Of a stretch of 64,000 nucleotides of DNA, positions 4,974 through 62,339 are shown in pieces. The stretch comes from Ruania suaedae (lineage in GTDB: Bacteria > Actinomycetota > Actinomycetes > Actinomycetales > Beutenbergiaceae): positions 868,001-932,000 of the forward strand of contig NZ_CP088018.1 of assembly GCF_021049265.1 (NCBI RefSeq). The letters run 5' to 3'. The position numbers and the translations under genes are program-made. Position 1 is the first letter of the stretch; every line of letters starts with the position of its first letter. The notes beneath the pieces are model-generated. The model made no database searches, had not been told where the DNA came from, and saw nothing but the letters and a program-made list of their open reading frames with translations.

Positions 4974-5030
4974 GGTGCCTCCTCGGATCGGGAATGCCCC
5001 CAGCACACCGCCACGGCCACCCTCGTGACT

Positions 5031-5068
5031 TCCCCCGATCGGCTGGACCTGCCCACCCGATCGGGGGA
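5031..5068. promoter_or_regulatory. Paired CCGATCGG palindromes in divergent promoter region
   Basis: TCCCCCGATCGG (5031-5042) is repeated inverted as CCGATCGGGGGA (5057-5068). Each half contains the 8-bp palindrome CCGATCGG, with centres 22 bp apart. The pair lies between the DUF4352 gene and the sensor kinase, upstream of the kinase -10 element. It is a candidate site for a dimeric regulator, possibly the adjacent NarL-type regulator; this is inference. Confidence 0.45.
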
Positions 5069-5114
5069 GGGAGCGCGACCCGTTCGGGCGGTACTGCCCG
5101 TCGGTGCCTGGCCC

Positions 5115-59241: not shown

Positions 59242-59937
59242 TCAGTCGTCCTCGGGTGGGTCCGGGGCCACGTCGTGCGGCGGCGTGCTCTGCCCGCCCT
59301 CGCCGGTGCCGTAGCCGGCACCGAGGACGGCCTCGAGGATCCGGCTGTCGGCGAAGACGCCGTGGGTGTAGAGCTCCAGGGCGGGCAGCATCGCCTCGTC
59401 CATGAACGCGCGCATGGTCGCGACCGGGTCACGGGGCCCGCCCTCGTCCGCGAGCCGGATGCGCAGCAGCAATGCCCCCAGCCCGGCGTGCGTGAGGTAG
59501 CGGGCCCGGGCCTGCGGGTCGCGGCTGGGCCGGATCATCCCGGTGCGCTCGCCCTCGGCCAGGTAGTCGATTGCGTCCGCGACCATGTGATCGATCAGCT
59601 GCCGGGCGAGGGTGCCGCCGTCGATGAGGCTGGCGACCACGTAGCCGGTGAGCGGGGCGTACTCGTCCATGTGGGCGAGCTGCTCGAGCAGGCTGCGGTT
59701 GTCGGCGGCCACGGCGGTGAGCTTGATGCGGCGGATCTCGGCGAGCACGTGCTCGTCGCACGCCGCCCGGAGAGCGTCCTTCGAGCCGTAGTGCCGGATC
59801 ACCAGGGCGGCGCTGACTCCGGCCTCGGCGCCGATCTCGCGCAGGCCCACGGTGAACCCGTCGATGCCGAACCGGCGCACGGCAGCGGCGAGGATCCGCT
59901 CGGGCGTCGTGCCCGGGTCCGTCCCGTCGGTGTCCAT
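59242..59937 (-). CDS. TetR-family repressor of ABC efflux operon
   Basis: 231 aa. The DNA-binding domain is TPERILAAAVRRFGIDGFTVGLREIGAEAGVSAALVIRHYGSKDALRAACDEHV, followed by a helical ligand domain and an acidic Pro-rich tail. It is the first gene of the operon with the efflux ATPase and permease. ATG 59937 is preceded at 7 nt by -10 TACGCT, which overlaps the palindrome at 59948-59963, so tight autorepression relieved by an exported drug is likely. No ribosome-binding site is present. Confidence 0.9.
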   Translation of the reverse strand: MDTDGTDPGTTPERILAAAVRRFGIDGFTVGLREIGAEAGVSAALVIRHYGSKDALRAACDEHVLAEIRRIKLTAVAADNRSLLEQLAHMDEYAPLTGYVVASLIDGGTLARQLIDHMVADAIDYLAEGERTGMIRPSRDPQARARYLTHAGLGALLLRIRLADEGGPRDPVATMRAFMDEAMLPALELYTHGVFADSRILEAVLGAGYGTGEGGQSTPPHDVAPDPPEDD

Positions 59938-59978: not shown

Positions 59979-60036
59979 CGCGTTGCCCCGATCTGTCGCT
60001 TCGGCCCGGACTCAGCCGACAGATCGGGGCAACGCG
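59979..60036. repeat. Palindromic repeat copy A at the 3' end of DUF559 gene
   Basis: Arms 59979-59998 and 60017-60036 (starting CGCGTTGCCCCG) pair perfectly over 20 bp around an 18-nt loop. The right arm contains the last codons and stop of the DUF559 gene (ALPRSVG). On the minus strand its sequence aligns with copy B (61073-61132), including loop bases GTCCGG and the following CGAAGCGAC. Confidence 0.75.
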
Positions 60037-60959
60037 GGGCGGCCGGCCGCGTCGCCGGGCCGCCGGCCGCGGCTGCGCAGTGCCCGTCCGACCTGCTCGA
60101 TCACCGACGAGAGCCTGGTTCCGCCGTGCGACCGGTTCACGCGGATGACCAGCCAGCCCGCTTCCGCGAGAGCGTTCAGCCGGTCGATGTCGCGCTCGTA
60201 TTGGCGCCGGTCGGTGCGGTGGTGGTCGCCGTCGTACTCCACGATGACCCGCTCTGCCCGGTAGACGAGGTCGGCACGGGCGAGGAACCGGCCCCGGTCG
60301 TCGAACAGCTCCTTGTTCACCTCCGGCTCGGGCAGCCCCGCCGCGAGGAGGGAGAGTCGCAGTCTGGTCTCCCGTGGCGAATCGGTCCCGGCTCGCACGA
60401 GACGCGCCGCACGAGTCAGAGTCCGATGGCCGCGACGGCCGTGGTGCGCCTCGACGGCCTCGGTCAGTGCCGCGGCGGTGGCCAGCGGTCGCTTGCGGCG
60501 CAGGAGGGCGTCGCCGACGACCACCAGGTCCCACATCGACTGTGTTCCGGCGAGCTGGAGCCACACGCTCAGCGCAGAAGCGACCCGGGCCCCTCGTGCC
60601 ACGCGCACTCGCGTGAGCCGGGGATCGAGTCTGTGCCCCCGGATCCGGCTGCCCCGGGGCGCGCGGGCCGGCGCGATCACCGCCATGTCGAGCCGATCGC
60701 CGCGCGGCCAGGGGGCGGGCAGGCCGTGGAGCGTGGCCGCGGTGTGATGGGAGACGAGGGTGTCCGGCCGTAGCACCTGGTAGGCGAGACATCGTTCGTG
60801 CAGGCTCAGCGCGTCCTTCGCCGGTACGCGCACCCCGGGGAACGGCGCCTCCAGATCGCTGCGGCGGAGACGTTCGGCGCCGACCCCGGCGGCGAGCGCG
60901 CTGCGCACGGTGAACAGTTCGCTGTGCAAGGAGTCCGGGAGCGGCTCGGGTGTGCGCAT
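60012..60959 (-). CDS. DUF559 endonuclease-like protein with AbiEi-type N-terminus
   Basis: 315 aa. The N-terminal part (FTVRSALAAGVGAERLRRSDL, then VLRPDTLVSHHTAATLHGLPAP) resembles the winged-helix and linker region of AbiEi-like proteins. The C-terminal part is a DUF559/VSR-like PD-(D/E)xK nuclease: ARADLVYRAERVIVEYDGDHH with Asp and Glu ligands, then RDIDRLNALAEAGWLVIRVN. Such stand-alone genes are frequent and often multicopy in Micrococcales; their role is unknown. The start ATG 60959 is a choice on domain grounds. The gene is bracketed by two copies of one palindromic element, and its last codons lie in copy A. Confidence 0.8.
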   Translation of the reverse strand: MRTPEPLPDSLHSELFTVRSALAAGVGAERLRRSDLEAPFPGVRVPAKDALSLHERCLAYQVLRPDTLVSHHTAATLHGLPAPWPRGDRLDMAVIAPARAPRGSRIRGHRLDPRLTRVRVARGARVASALSVWLQLAGTQSMWDLVVVGDALLRRKRPLATAAALTEAVEAHHGRRGHRTLTRAARLVRAGTDSPRETRLRLSLLAAGLPEPEVNKELFDDRGRFLARADLVYRAERVIVEYDGDHHRTDRRQYERDIDRLNALAEAGWLVIRVNRSHGGTRLSSVIEQVGRALRSRGRRPGDAAGRPALPRSVG

Positions 60960-61072
60960 GCCCCGAGCGTGGCCGGGGCAGCCGGTGACCAGGCTCTGCG
61001 GGAGCGGGGGCTGTGGAGGGGGCGCCATCCGGGCACCGCCCGTGGACCGGCGCCGCCCGGACCGTGCCTGCC

Positions 61073-61132
61073 GCGAGTTGCCTCGAATCGTCGCTTCGAC
61101 GCCGGACCAAGCGACGATTCGCGGCAACTCGC
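61073..61132. repeat. Palindromic repeat copy B upstream of DUF559 gene
   Basis: Arms 61073-61096 and 61109-61132 pair over 24 bp with one mismatch around a 12-nt loop. It starts 16 bp past the cysteine desulfurase stop and 113 bp before the DUF559 start. Its sequence is related to copy A throughout (GTTGCC, then CGA, GTCGCTTCG in plus sense). It may also act as terminator for the desulfurase gene. Nothing else was seen in 60960-61148. Confidence 0.75.
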
Positions 61133-61148: not shown

Positions 61149-62339
61149 TTAGCTCCCGACGGCGGCCACCGCCTCGGCCACCAGCGCCGCCACCTGCTCC
61201 AGCTCGGCCGGCGTCACGTCCTGCCCCGCGGTGAAGCGCACGGACGTCTGCGCGACCTCGGCCTCGATCCCGCACGCGAGCAGCACGTGCGAGGCCTCGT
61301 CGGACCCCGCGGCGCAGGCCGACCCGCTCGAGCTGATCACCCCGCGCCGTTCCAGCTCCAGCAGCACCGCCTCGCCCGAGACCCCGGGGAAGCAGAAGGA
61401 GGCATGGTTCGGCAGCCGCCCGACGGCGGAGGTCGCCTCTCGTTGCGAGGCCCCCTGCTGCGAGCCCGCCCGGGCGGGCGGGACGCCGGTGAGCTGCGCC
61501 GTCGGCACCTGCTCGAGAATCTCGGCGGTGAAGGCGGCCATGGCGGGCCCGAGACCGGCCGCCCGCTCGGCCCGCTCGGACTCGACGCGCGCCAGCGCCA
61601 CCCCGAGCGCCACCGCCCCGGCCACGTTCTCAGTACCGGAGCGGCGCTCGCGTTCCTGCCCGCCGCCGTGCAGCACCGGCTCCACGGCGAGGCGTCCACG
61701 CAGGAACACGGCGCCGATGCCCTTGCCGGCACCCACCTTGTGCCCGGAGATCGACAGCGCGTCCACGCCGAGTGCGCTCACGTCGAGGTCGAGCCATCCG
61801 GCGGCCTGCACCGCGTCGGTGTGCACCAGTGCGCCCACCTCGTGGGCGAGGCCGGCCAGGGCGCGGATGTCCTGCACGGTGCCGATCTCGTTGTTCGCCA
61901 GCGCGATGCTCACCAGCGTGGTGTCCGCGCGCAGCACCTCACGCAGCGCCTCGGGTGCCACCACGCCCGCCTCGGTCACCGGCACAAGAGACACCTCGAA
62001 GCCGTGCACGCGCGCCAGGTAGTCGACCGAGGCCAGCACCGCCTCGTGCTCGATCCCCGCCGTCACCACGTGCCGGCCGCGCGGGTTCGCCAGCGCGAGC
62101 CCCTTGATCGCGAGGTTCGCACCCTCGGTCCCACCGGAGGTGAACGTCACCTCGCTCGCCCGGCAGCCCAGCACGCCGGCCACCGATCGCCGCGCCTCCC
62201 GCAGCCCGGCCGCAGCCCGCTCACCGAGGGAGTGCTGGCTGGAGGGATTGCCGAACTCCCCGGTCAGGTAGGGCCACATCGCCTCCAGCGCCTCCCGGCG
62301 CATCGGAGCGGTAGCGGCGGCGTCGAGGTACAGCGCCAC
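61149..62339 (-). CDS. Cysteine desulfurase (IscS/NifS type)
   Basis: 396-aa PLP enzyme moving sulfur from cysteine to a cysteine persulfide for Fe-S assembly. YLDAAATAP, TSGGTEGANLA, GIEHEAVLAS, ANNEIGTVQDI, the PLP-lysine motif SISGHKVGAGKG (Lys201), RSGTENVAG and the catalytic-cysteine loop SSSGSACAAGSD (Cys342) are all present. GTG 62339 starts 1 nt after the nadC stop. Its placement in the nad operon suggests it builds the 4Fe-4S cluster of quinolinate synthase NadA, as reported for nad-linked NifS proteins elsewhere. Confidence 0.93.
   Translation of the reverse strand: MALYLDAAATAPMRREALEAMWPYLTGEFGNPSSQHSLGERAAAGLREARRSVAGVLGCRASEVTFTSGGTEGANLAIKGLALANPRGRHVVTAGIEHEAVLASVDYLARVHGFEVSLVPVTEAGVVAPEALREVLRADTTLVSIALANNEIGTVQDIRALAGLAHEVGALVHTDAVQAAGWLDLDVSALGVDALSISGHKVGAGKGIGAVFLRGRLAVEPVLHGGGQERERRSGTENVAGAVALGVALARVESERAERAAGLGPAMAAFTAEILEQVPTAQLTGVPPARAGSQQGASQREATSAVGRLPNHASFCFPGVSGEAVLLELERRGVISSSGSACAAGSDEASHVLLACGIEAEVAQTSVRFTAGQDVTPAELEQVAALVAEAVAAVGS

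Follow-up and report, generated by a model that had tools for sequence, protein, structure and literature searches.

A lone DUF559 nuclease gene in a Ruania genome (G000) lies between two long, mutually similar palindromes, which raises the question of whether gene and palindromes work as a pair. The window, that is, the whole 64-kb stretch of DNA analysed here, comprises bases 868001-932000 of this single-contig 3.56-Mb genome. A scan of the window for stems of 15 or more matched pairs, with few mismatches and a loop of 3-25 bases, yields three strong stems, namely palindrome A, palindrome B and an inverted repeat at 5030-5069. The third stem, with 17-bp arms that carry two mismatches and a 6-bp loop, is unrelated to the A/B element. 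An earlier note on this DNA had claimed that two inverted repeats bracket a single DUF559 gene and that palindrome A supplies its last codons. The coordinates and the gene were confirmed (Table 1), and the stop codon was found midway along palindrome A, from which the final codons (...LPRSVG) are read. The same note had held that the palindromes are no chance hairpins. Consistent with this, single-strand folding of A and B gives z scores of -5.65 and -6.63 relative to shuffled sequences, with 0 of 200 shuffles as good in either case, and the 52-bp unit recurs at nine places in G000 besides A and B. The view that A and B are copies of one element, loop included, holds in part: the half-site/spacer/half-site arrangement is common to both and the unit recurs, but the spacer varies among units, so conservation does not reside in the loops, alike though they are in A and B. 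Rfam returned sub-threshold matches only, the best being F6 TB sRNA on palindrome A (34.6 bits against a gathering score of 46).

Table 1. Coordinates of the palindromes, the nuclease gene with its predicted domains, and the adjoining genes in the window.
Feature	Position	Strand	Description
Palindrome A	59979..60036	.	20-bp perfect arms; overlaps gene end
Palindrome A core, 52 bp	59982-60033		half-site 59982-60001 (+), spacer 60002-60013, half-site 60014-60033 (-)
Nuclease gene (DUF559)	60012..60959	-	ORF; ATG at 60959; 315 aa plus stop
C-terminal nuclease domain, residues 194-299	60063..60380	-	predicted Vsr / EDxHD homing-endonuclease fold
N-terminal region, residues 3-189	60393..60953	-	predicted AbiEi-antitoxin-like fold, presumed DNA-binding and dimerising
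Palindrome B	61073..61132	.	24-bp arms, one mismatch; ~114 bp upstream of ATG
Palindrome B core, 52 bp	61077-61128		half-site 61077-61096 (+), spacer 61097-61108, half-site 61109-61128 (-)
TetR-family regulator (context only)	59242..59937	-	Pfam TetR_N and TetR_C_25
Class-V aminotransferase (context only)	61149..62339	-	Pfam Aminotran_5

The gene product matches Pfam DUF559 in its C-terminal part at 26 bits, exceeding the cut-off of 20.6, and MTES_1575 at 25.4 bits, below that family's own cut-off of 38.2; NCBIfam gives zero matches. According to the window ORFs and a Pfam search of the neighbours, it is the single gene between palindromes A and B and stands alone, and no AbiEii (DUF1814) toxin gene lies between the window palindromes or as an immediate neighbour. 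Homologs within the genus are 45-67% identical to it. The neighbourhood is shared: a TetR homolog adjoins the nuclease gene in G015, G017, G018, G019 and G020 (tblastn 50-76% identity; L037, L038, L039, L040, L043), and a homolog of the class-V aminotransferase, which we take to be cysteine-desulfurase-like, adjoins it in G015, G017, G019 and G020 (76-80% identity; L037, L039, L040, L043). At the orthologous locus, homologs with flanking palindromes are found in G017, G018 and G019. At L039 (G020) and L040 (G015), a ~49% identical gene lies in reversed orientation with the same aminotransferase and TetR homologs around it and with quite different repeats (CGGTAGGTGCCA type). G000 itself has two more DUF559-type genes. 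The second (2535789) is 37% identical to the window gene and is bracketed by a quite different repeat, which has one further half-site match in the rest of the genome; PADLOC reports an AbiEi match on it (E 8e-4) and none on the window gene. The third (3064806) has a weak inverted pair; its score of 31 exceeds the 95% point for mispaired flanks and stays below the 99% point.

The fold of the protein was predicted with AlphaFold2 from an alignment of 53 sequences (mean pLDDT 93.6, pTM 0.89). In the model, residues 3-189 resemble AbiEi of Streptococcus agalactiae (6y8q; VIA-align Z 11.3 over 177 residues, rmsd 5.7), while residues 194-299 resemble the catalytic domain of I-Bth0305I (3r3p; Z 11.9, rmsd 2.6, 96 residues) and Vsr in complex with DNA (1cw0; Z 9.6). 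Foldseek alone gives zero matches at E <= 0.001. The model thus joins an AbiEi-antitoxin-like region to a nuclease of the Vsr/EDxHD homing-endonuclease kind. E197, D230, E241, H247 and D257 are invariant among the 53 proteins. In G019, the homolog (L043, minus strand 1267-1953) is a 229-aa open frame from ATG that keeps the N-terminal region and the flanking palindromes and lacks E197, E241 and H247; judged by these residues, it is a natural nuclease-dead variant.

The bracketing of the gene by a shared repeat extends far beyond the window. A family search found a homolog at E <= 1e-10 in 19 of 24 genomes. After L041 was dropped for a flank that was too short and the partial matches L053, L059 and L061-L064 were left out, 18 of the 23 full-length family loci pass the thresholds for a flank repeat and 5 fail. 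At L025 the flank score is 31, which exceeds the 95% point for mispaired flanks (29) but not the 99% point (46). L038 falls narrowly short of the thresholds, although palindromes are visible by eye on both of its sides. A wider scan of species genomes found at least 557 relatives among at least 593 matching stretches, from which the best 80 were kept; these presumably belong to Micrococcales genera and Jiangella. Five of the 80 were dropped for short flanks. Of the 75 loci left from these best 80 of at least 557 relatives, 60 have a repeat, direct or inverted, common to their two 300-bp flanks that scores beyond the 99% point for mispaired flanks and 15 do not, compared with 0 of 35 neighbouring genes. 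When 36 window genes are scored against the same thresholds, the DUF559 gene has the highest rank, and a single one of the 35 others passes, by a narrow margin; among genes from loci with dispersed copies, 0 of 75 pass. The upstream and downstream palindromes are equal in length in all 14 hand-picked loci, where they measure 46-66 bp.

The type of the repeat differs among these loci, and it does so in step with the protein. Specifically, the upstream flank of one locus was compared with the downstream flank of another across the 75 loci (from the best 80 of at least 557 relatives). Of the 23 locus pairs whose proteins are at least 70% identical, 19 share a repeat, compared with 14 of 2752 pairs below 70%. 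At the level of sequence comparison, the repeat type changes together with the protein.

Units of the window type are dispersed in Ruania genomes. There are 11 units in G000 (A and B included), 11 in G017, 7 in G019 and 4 in G020, the last of which is without a gene of the window type. Matching of a single half-site pattern with up to 3 mismatches gives 14 matches in G000, 21 in G017, 14 in G019, 6 in G018, 6 in G020, 7 in G021, 3 in G015 and 1 in G016, a total of 72, where the reversed pattern gives 5; in the 16 non-Ruania genomes the counts are 14 and 8, respectively. The geometry of the unit is fixed, with a start-to-start half-site distance of 32 bases in the 21 pairs in which both halves match a pattern, and the remaining Ruania units have the same spacing and at least 12 of 20 arm matches. 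Several solo units occupy corresponding positions in different species, as judged by eye from their flanks. The two arms of a Ruania unit match at 15.45 of 20 positions, compared with 15.56 for shuffled arms (33 units; G018_A and G021_935 were left out), indicating that the half-site, and not the pairing, is conserved in the genus. A hairpin-only reading for Ruania is ruled out by the same comparison. The Ruania units probably behave as inverted binding half-sites and not as strictly maintained hairpins.

Larger populations are present in Promicromonospora. The half-site found at the gene of G024, G025 and G026 has 93, 115 and 35 copies in these genomes and 7 in G027, with 0 for the reversed pattern; the half-site at the G027 gene has 98 copies there and 8, 1 and 3 in G024, G025 and G026, again with 0 for the reversed-pattern control. 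The outer 12 bases are common to the two half-site types, and 6 of the inner 10 are different. In these four Promicromonospora genomes, which amount to one contrast and not many since they belong to one genus and two of them are close, the palindrome population, by these counts, matches the flanks of the resident gene. Similarly, the Jiangella half-site type has 11, 16 and 16 copies in Jiangella genomes, 0 in G000 and 1 in G024. Paired units number 42 in G024, with a start-to-start spacing of 39 (32 units) or 40 (10), and 48 in G027, with a spacing of 39 (39 units) or 40 (9). The arms of a unit match at 20.55 of 22 positions in G024 and at 20.92 of 22 in G027, compared with 19.22 and 19.83 for shuffled partners (0 of 5000 shuffles in each case), an excess that subfamilies can inflate. 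At two pairs of orthologous G024/G025 sites, L223/L239 and L236/L286, both arms have changed jointly. Unlike in Ruania, pairing is apparently kept in Promicromonospora.

Comparison of orthologous sites indicates how the palindromes come and go. G024 and G025 are ~94% identical at four compared loci. All 10 G024 sites are occupied in G025, at L228 with an extra gene beside the element, so turnover is slow. Of ten G025 sites sought in G024, seven are occupied, two are without the element (L235, L242) and L233 was not called. At L235 the element is absent from G024 and also from G026, and at L242 another hairpin takes its place in both; L235 and L242 look like gains in G025. Among nine sites with both flanks found in G026, the more distant genome (L228 and L237, with one flank only, and L231, with zero matches, were left out), L238 is occupied, L227, L230, L233 and L235 have no element, L242 has the other hairpin, and L224, L232 and L236 have palindromes of other families. 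Other-family palindromes of G026 (L278, L289, L280) were seen to occupy orthologous intergenic places. The pattern of occupancy suggests that palindrome families replace one another. The nuclease gene was not found in the large insertions at L228 (G025) and L235 (G024), which contain other genes.

The half-sites are the least divergent part of the element. In an ungapped comparison of 12 orthologous G024/G025 sites, 27 of 528 half-site positions differ, compared with 40 of 209 in the spacers and 48 of 192 in the 8-bp flanks (Fisher 2e-8 and 6e-13, respectively). The sites were picked for near-perfect half-sites in one genome, which by our estimate can lower the half-site figure by as much as about twofold. 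With a crude ORF caller, which put some nearest genes at a distance of >1 kb, 43 dispersed sites, among which four G024/G025 pairs represent one place each, were placed as 17 between convergent genes, 14 between tandem genes, 1 between divergent genes, 9 inside an ORF and 2 without class; by this call, 31 of the 32 classified sites lie beside gene 3' ends. At site 983-1043 of L233 (G025), the upstream gene seems to take its stop codon from a dispersed palindrome, just as the nuclease gene does from palindrome A.

We consider it somewhat more likely than not that the locus represents a nuclease paired with cognate palindromes, equivalent in operation to REP/RAYT but built on an unrelated enzyme. 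The pair would have two parts, a resident gene for a DNA-binding nuclease and its cognate palindromes, each made of two inverted ~20-bp half-sites at near-fixed spacing within ~46-66 bp; two palindromes would bracket the gene and other copies would lie elsewhere, mostly between genes by the crude gene call. In such a pair, for which bracketing, dispersal, geometry, co-divergence and low half-site divergence are observed, the AbiEi-like N-terminal region would bind the half-sites as a dimer, the Vsr/EDxHD domain would nick or cut at or beside the palindrome, and host repair of the break would copy palindromes to new places and keep their arms alike. Strand transfer is not part of the chemistry of a hydrolytic nuclease, so copying would require host help. 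Several observations speak against a cognate pair: 15 of 75 and 5 of 23 loci fail the flank test, Ruania arms match no better than shuffled ones, turnover is slow, G020 has units without a gene, the second G000 gene has one further half-site, and the pair at the third is weak.

The earlier note had compared the locus with REP elements and RAYT transposases, with a Vsr-like nuclease in the place of the RAYT, and had suggested that this nuclease might move, cut or protect its own palindromes. The comparison is borne out by the repeats at 60 of 75 loci (best 80 of at least 557 relatives), by a repeat type that follows the protein and by the predicted Vsr/EDxHD fold. The replacement of the RAYT agrees with a search for Y1 transposases (Y1_Tnp, PF01797, E <= 0.001), which finds one in 0 of 5 genomes and in 5 of 14 control genomes including E. 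coli, and with the tracking of repeat type and resident gene in the four Promicromonospora genomes. Two observations that the note had named as counting against its idea were scattered copies without a link to DUF559 genes and palindromes missing from orthologous loci; instead, dispersed copies match the type of the resident gene, and both palindromes are present in G017, G018 and G019.

The strongest rival is that the AbiEi-like domain autoregulates its own gene, the upstream palindrome being its operator and the others a regulon or decoys, while the nuclease has other targets, such as invading DNA. We regard this as unlikely, at a level that still carries weight. AbiEi and Rv2827c are reported to recognise inverted repeats within the promoters of their own genes (PMC7319586), in agreement with the AbiEi fold and with the position of palindrome B between the neighbouring gene and the start codon. 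The little divergence of half-sites would likewise be expected of an operator, as would the G019 gene, in which the N-terminal region is kept without E197, E241 and H247. An operator, however, explains neither the palindrome at the 3' end of the gene nor the 115 half-sites (~58 units) in one genome. The location of 31 of the 32 classified sites (of 43, by the crude gene call) next to gene 3' ends, the absence or replacement of palindromes between ~94%-identical genomes and the covariation from arm to arm are also left unexplained. If operator binding were the whole explanation, the system would no longer be a kind of its own.

Placement beside 3' ends would be natural if the chief role of the palindromes were bidirectional termination of transcription and their spread had another cause, with the nuclease gene occupying one spot between two of them. 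The 17 convergent and 14 tandem placements among the 43 dispersed sites (crude gene call) fit this, as do the strong folding of A and B and the presence of another hairpin at some sites in G026 or G024. Terminators need not match the flanks of one nuclease gene, yet these palindromes do, and among the genes tested the bracketing is specific to the nuclease family. We consider it improbable that termination is their main function; it may be a side role of the palindromes.

Slightly more doubtful still is a mobile cassette, either a transposon or a homing element, whose ends or target are the palindromes and whose empty targets or scars are the solo copies. The flanks are inverted and the nuclease fold is that of homing endonucleases, and the ~49% identical gene of G015 and G020 is reversed between the same neighbours with another repeat. 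Several gene copies with the same ends are not seen in G000, the only other homolog being 37% identical with different flanks; in six Ruania genomes, G000 included, the same TetR homolog adjoins the gene; relatives of the gene number zero in viral contigs or phages, with four weak plasmid matches; and both flanks are intact palindromes, which implies an uninterrupted target. A Vsr-type mismatch-repair nuclease with incidental palindromes is very improbable: the Vsr fold is shared, and a repair role at solitary cytosine methyltransferase motifs was proposed for Caulobacter VsrA, which has a DUF559 domain (PMC12907096), but the AbiEi-like region and the cognate palindromes are left unexplained. 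It is least credible of all that REP-like palindromes moved by another enzyme merely accumulate beside an unrelated gene, for although any enzymatic link is putative and G020 has units without a gene of the window type, 60 of 75 loci (best 80 of at least 557 relatives) compared with 0 of 35, the co-divergence, the reciprocal Promicromonospora match and the 0 of 5 genomes with a Y1 transposase argue otherwise.

The proposed cognate nuclease-palindrome pair shares most of its architecture with REPtrons. In REPtrons, repeats flank the enzyme gene, may overlap its ends and are dispersed mostly downstream of genes, and one genome may hold several repeat types with repeat-specific enzymes (PMC3733652). 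RAYT enzyme and repeat have co-evolved (PMC8266576), the RAYT gene is single-copy and vertically inherited (PMC8049555), and REPs form inverted doublets with a spacer (PMC3116915). Like REPtrons and TIRtrons, the present system has a gene flanked by cognate palindromes at most of the loci scored, and like REPtrons it has dispersed inverted doublets with a spacer (the nine further G000 units, 42 in G024 and 48 in G027). Unlike in REPtrons, the enzyme is predicted to be an AbiEi-like region with a Vsr/EDxHD nuclease and not a HuH/Y1 transposase; the common GTAG or CGTC foot tag is absent from the aligned Ruania units and listed flank repeats on inspection; and both units of a locus are equal in length in the 14 hand-picked loci. 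Because the enzyme that defines REPtrons is different here, we rate the system as a new kind that works like them.

The other relatives resemble single parts of the system. EDxHD homing endonucleases such as I-Bth0305I, and Vsr, share the nuclease fold and conserved acidic and histidine residues, a likeness judged at the level of the fold. I-Bth0305I is reported to act as a dimer on a target of nearly 60 bp, which matches the size of the units here (PMC3943268). Unlike genes of EDxHD homing endonucleases, the present gene is free-standing and its target is uninterrupted, both flanks being complete palindromes, and the AbiEi-like region replaces phage DNA-binding domains. AbiE type IV toxin-antitoxin systems share the N-terminal fold and the binding of inverted repeats by AbiEi (PMC7319586); here, the corresponding region is predicted to be fused to a nuclease, the repeats lie on both sides and genome-wide, and an adjacent AbiEii gene is absent from the window. 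Caulobacter VsrA similarly combines a DUF559 domain with a Vsr-like fold, but its proposed role in mismatch repair is tied to a solitary cytosine methyltransferase, and palindromic repeats are unmentioned in the excerpt of that report (PMC12907096).

How populations of sequences persist in bacterial genomes is an open question, and the REP-kind repeat/enzyme pairs that we found described depend on HuH tyrosine transposases. It is conceivable, at just under an even chance, that the palindromes of these Actinomycetota are genomic replicators of a new class, which a resident AbiEi-EDxHD/Vsr nuclease copies and maintains; such a system would be REPIN-like and based on an unrelated enzyme superfamily. 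In the open-licence PMC literature, no link of DUF559 with palindromic repeats was found, although it may be described elsewhere; the papers there that contain both DUF559 and 'palindrom' concern a DUF559 protein in a prophage together with CRISPR, or DUF5593. A second, unrelated class of enzymes with cognate palindromes would mean that partnerships of this sort have more than one origin, and would assign a function to proteins so far annotated as DUF559 and nothing else. Nuclease specificity and palindrome would then evolve together fast enough to give many genera a code of their own, so natural gene/site pairs would be available in number for reading the specificity of EDxHD nucleases.

Searches of viral contigs and phages gave zero relatives of the gene, which speaks against a viral or phage origin. 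Plasmids give four records with weak matches of 33-38% identity. Zero flank repeats were seen at a Nonomuraea plasmid relative, for which the gene start was guessed. Family genes L298, L300 and L301 lie on large Arthrobacter plasmids, and in each of them the two flanks share a repeat of its own type.
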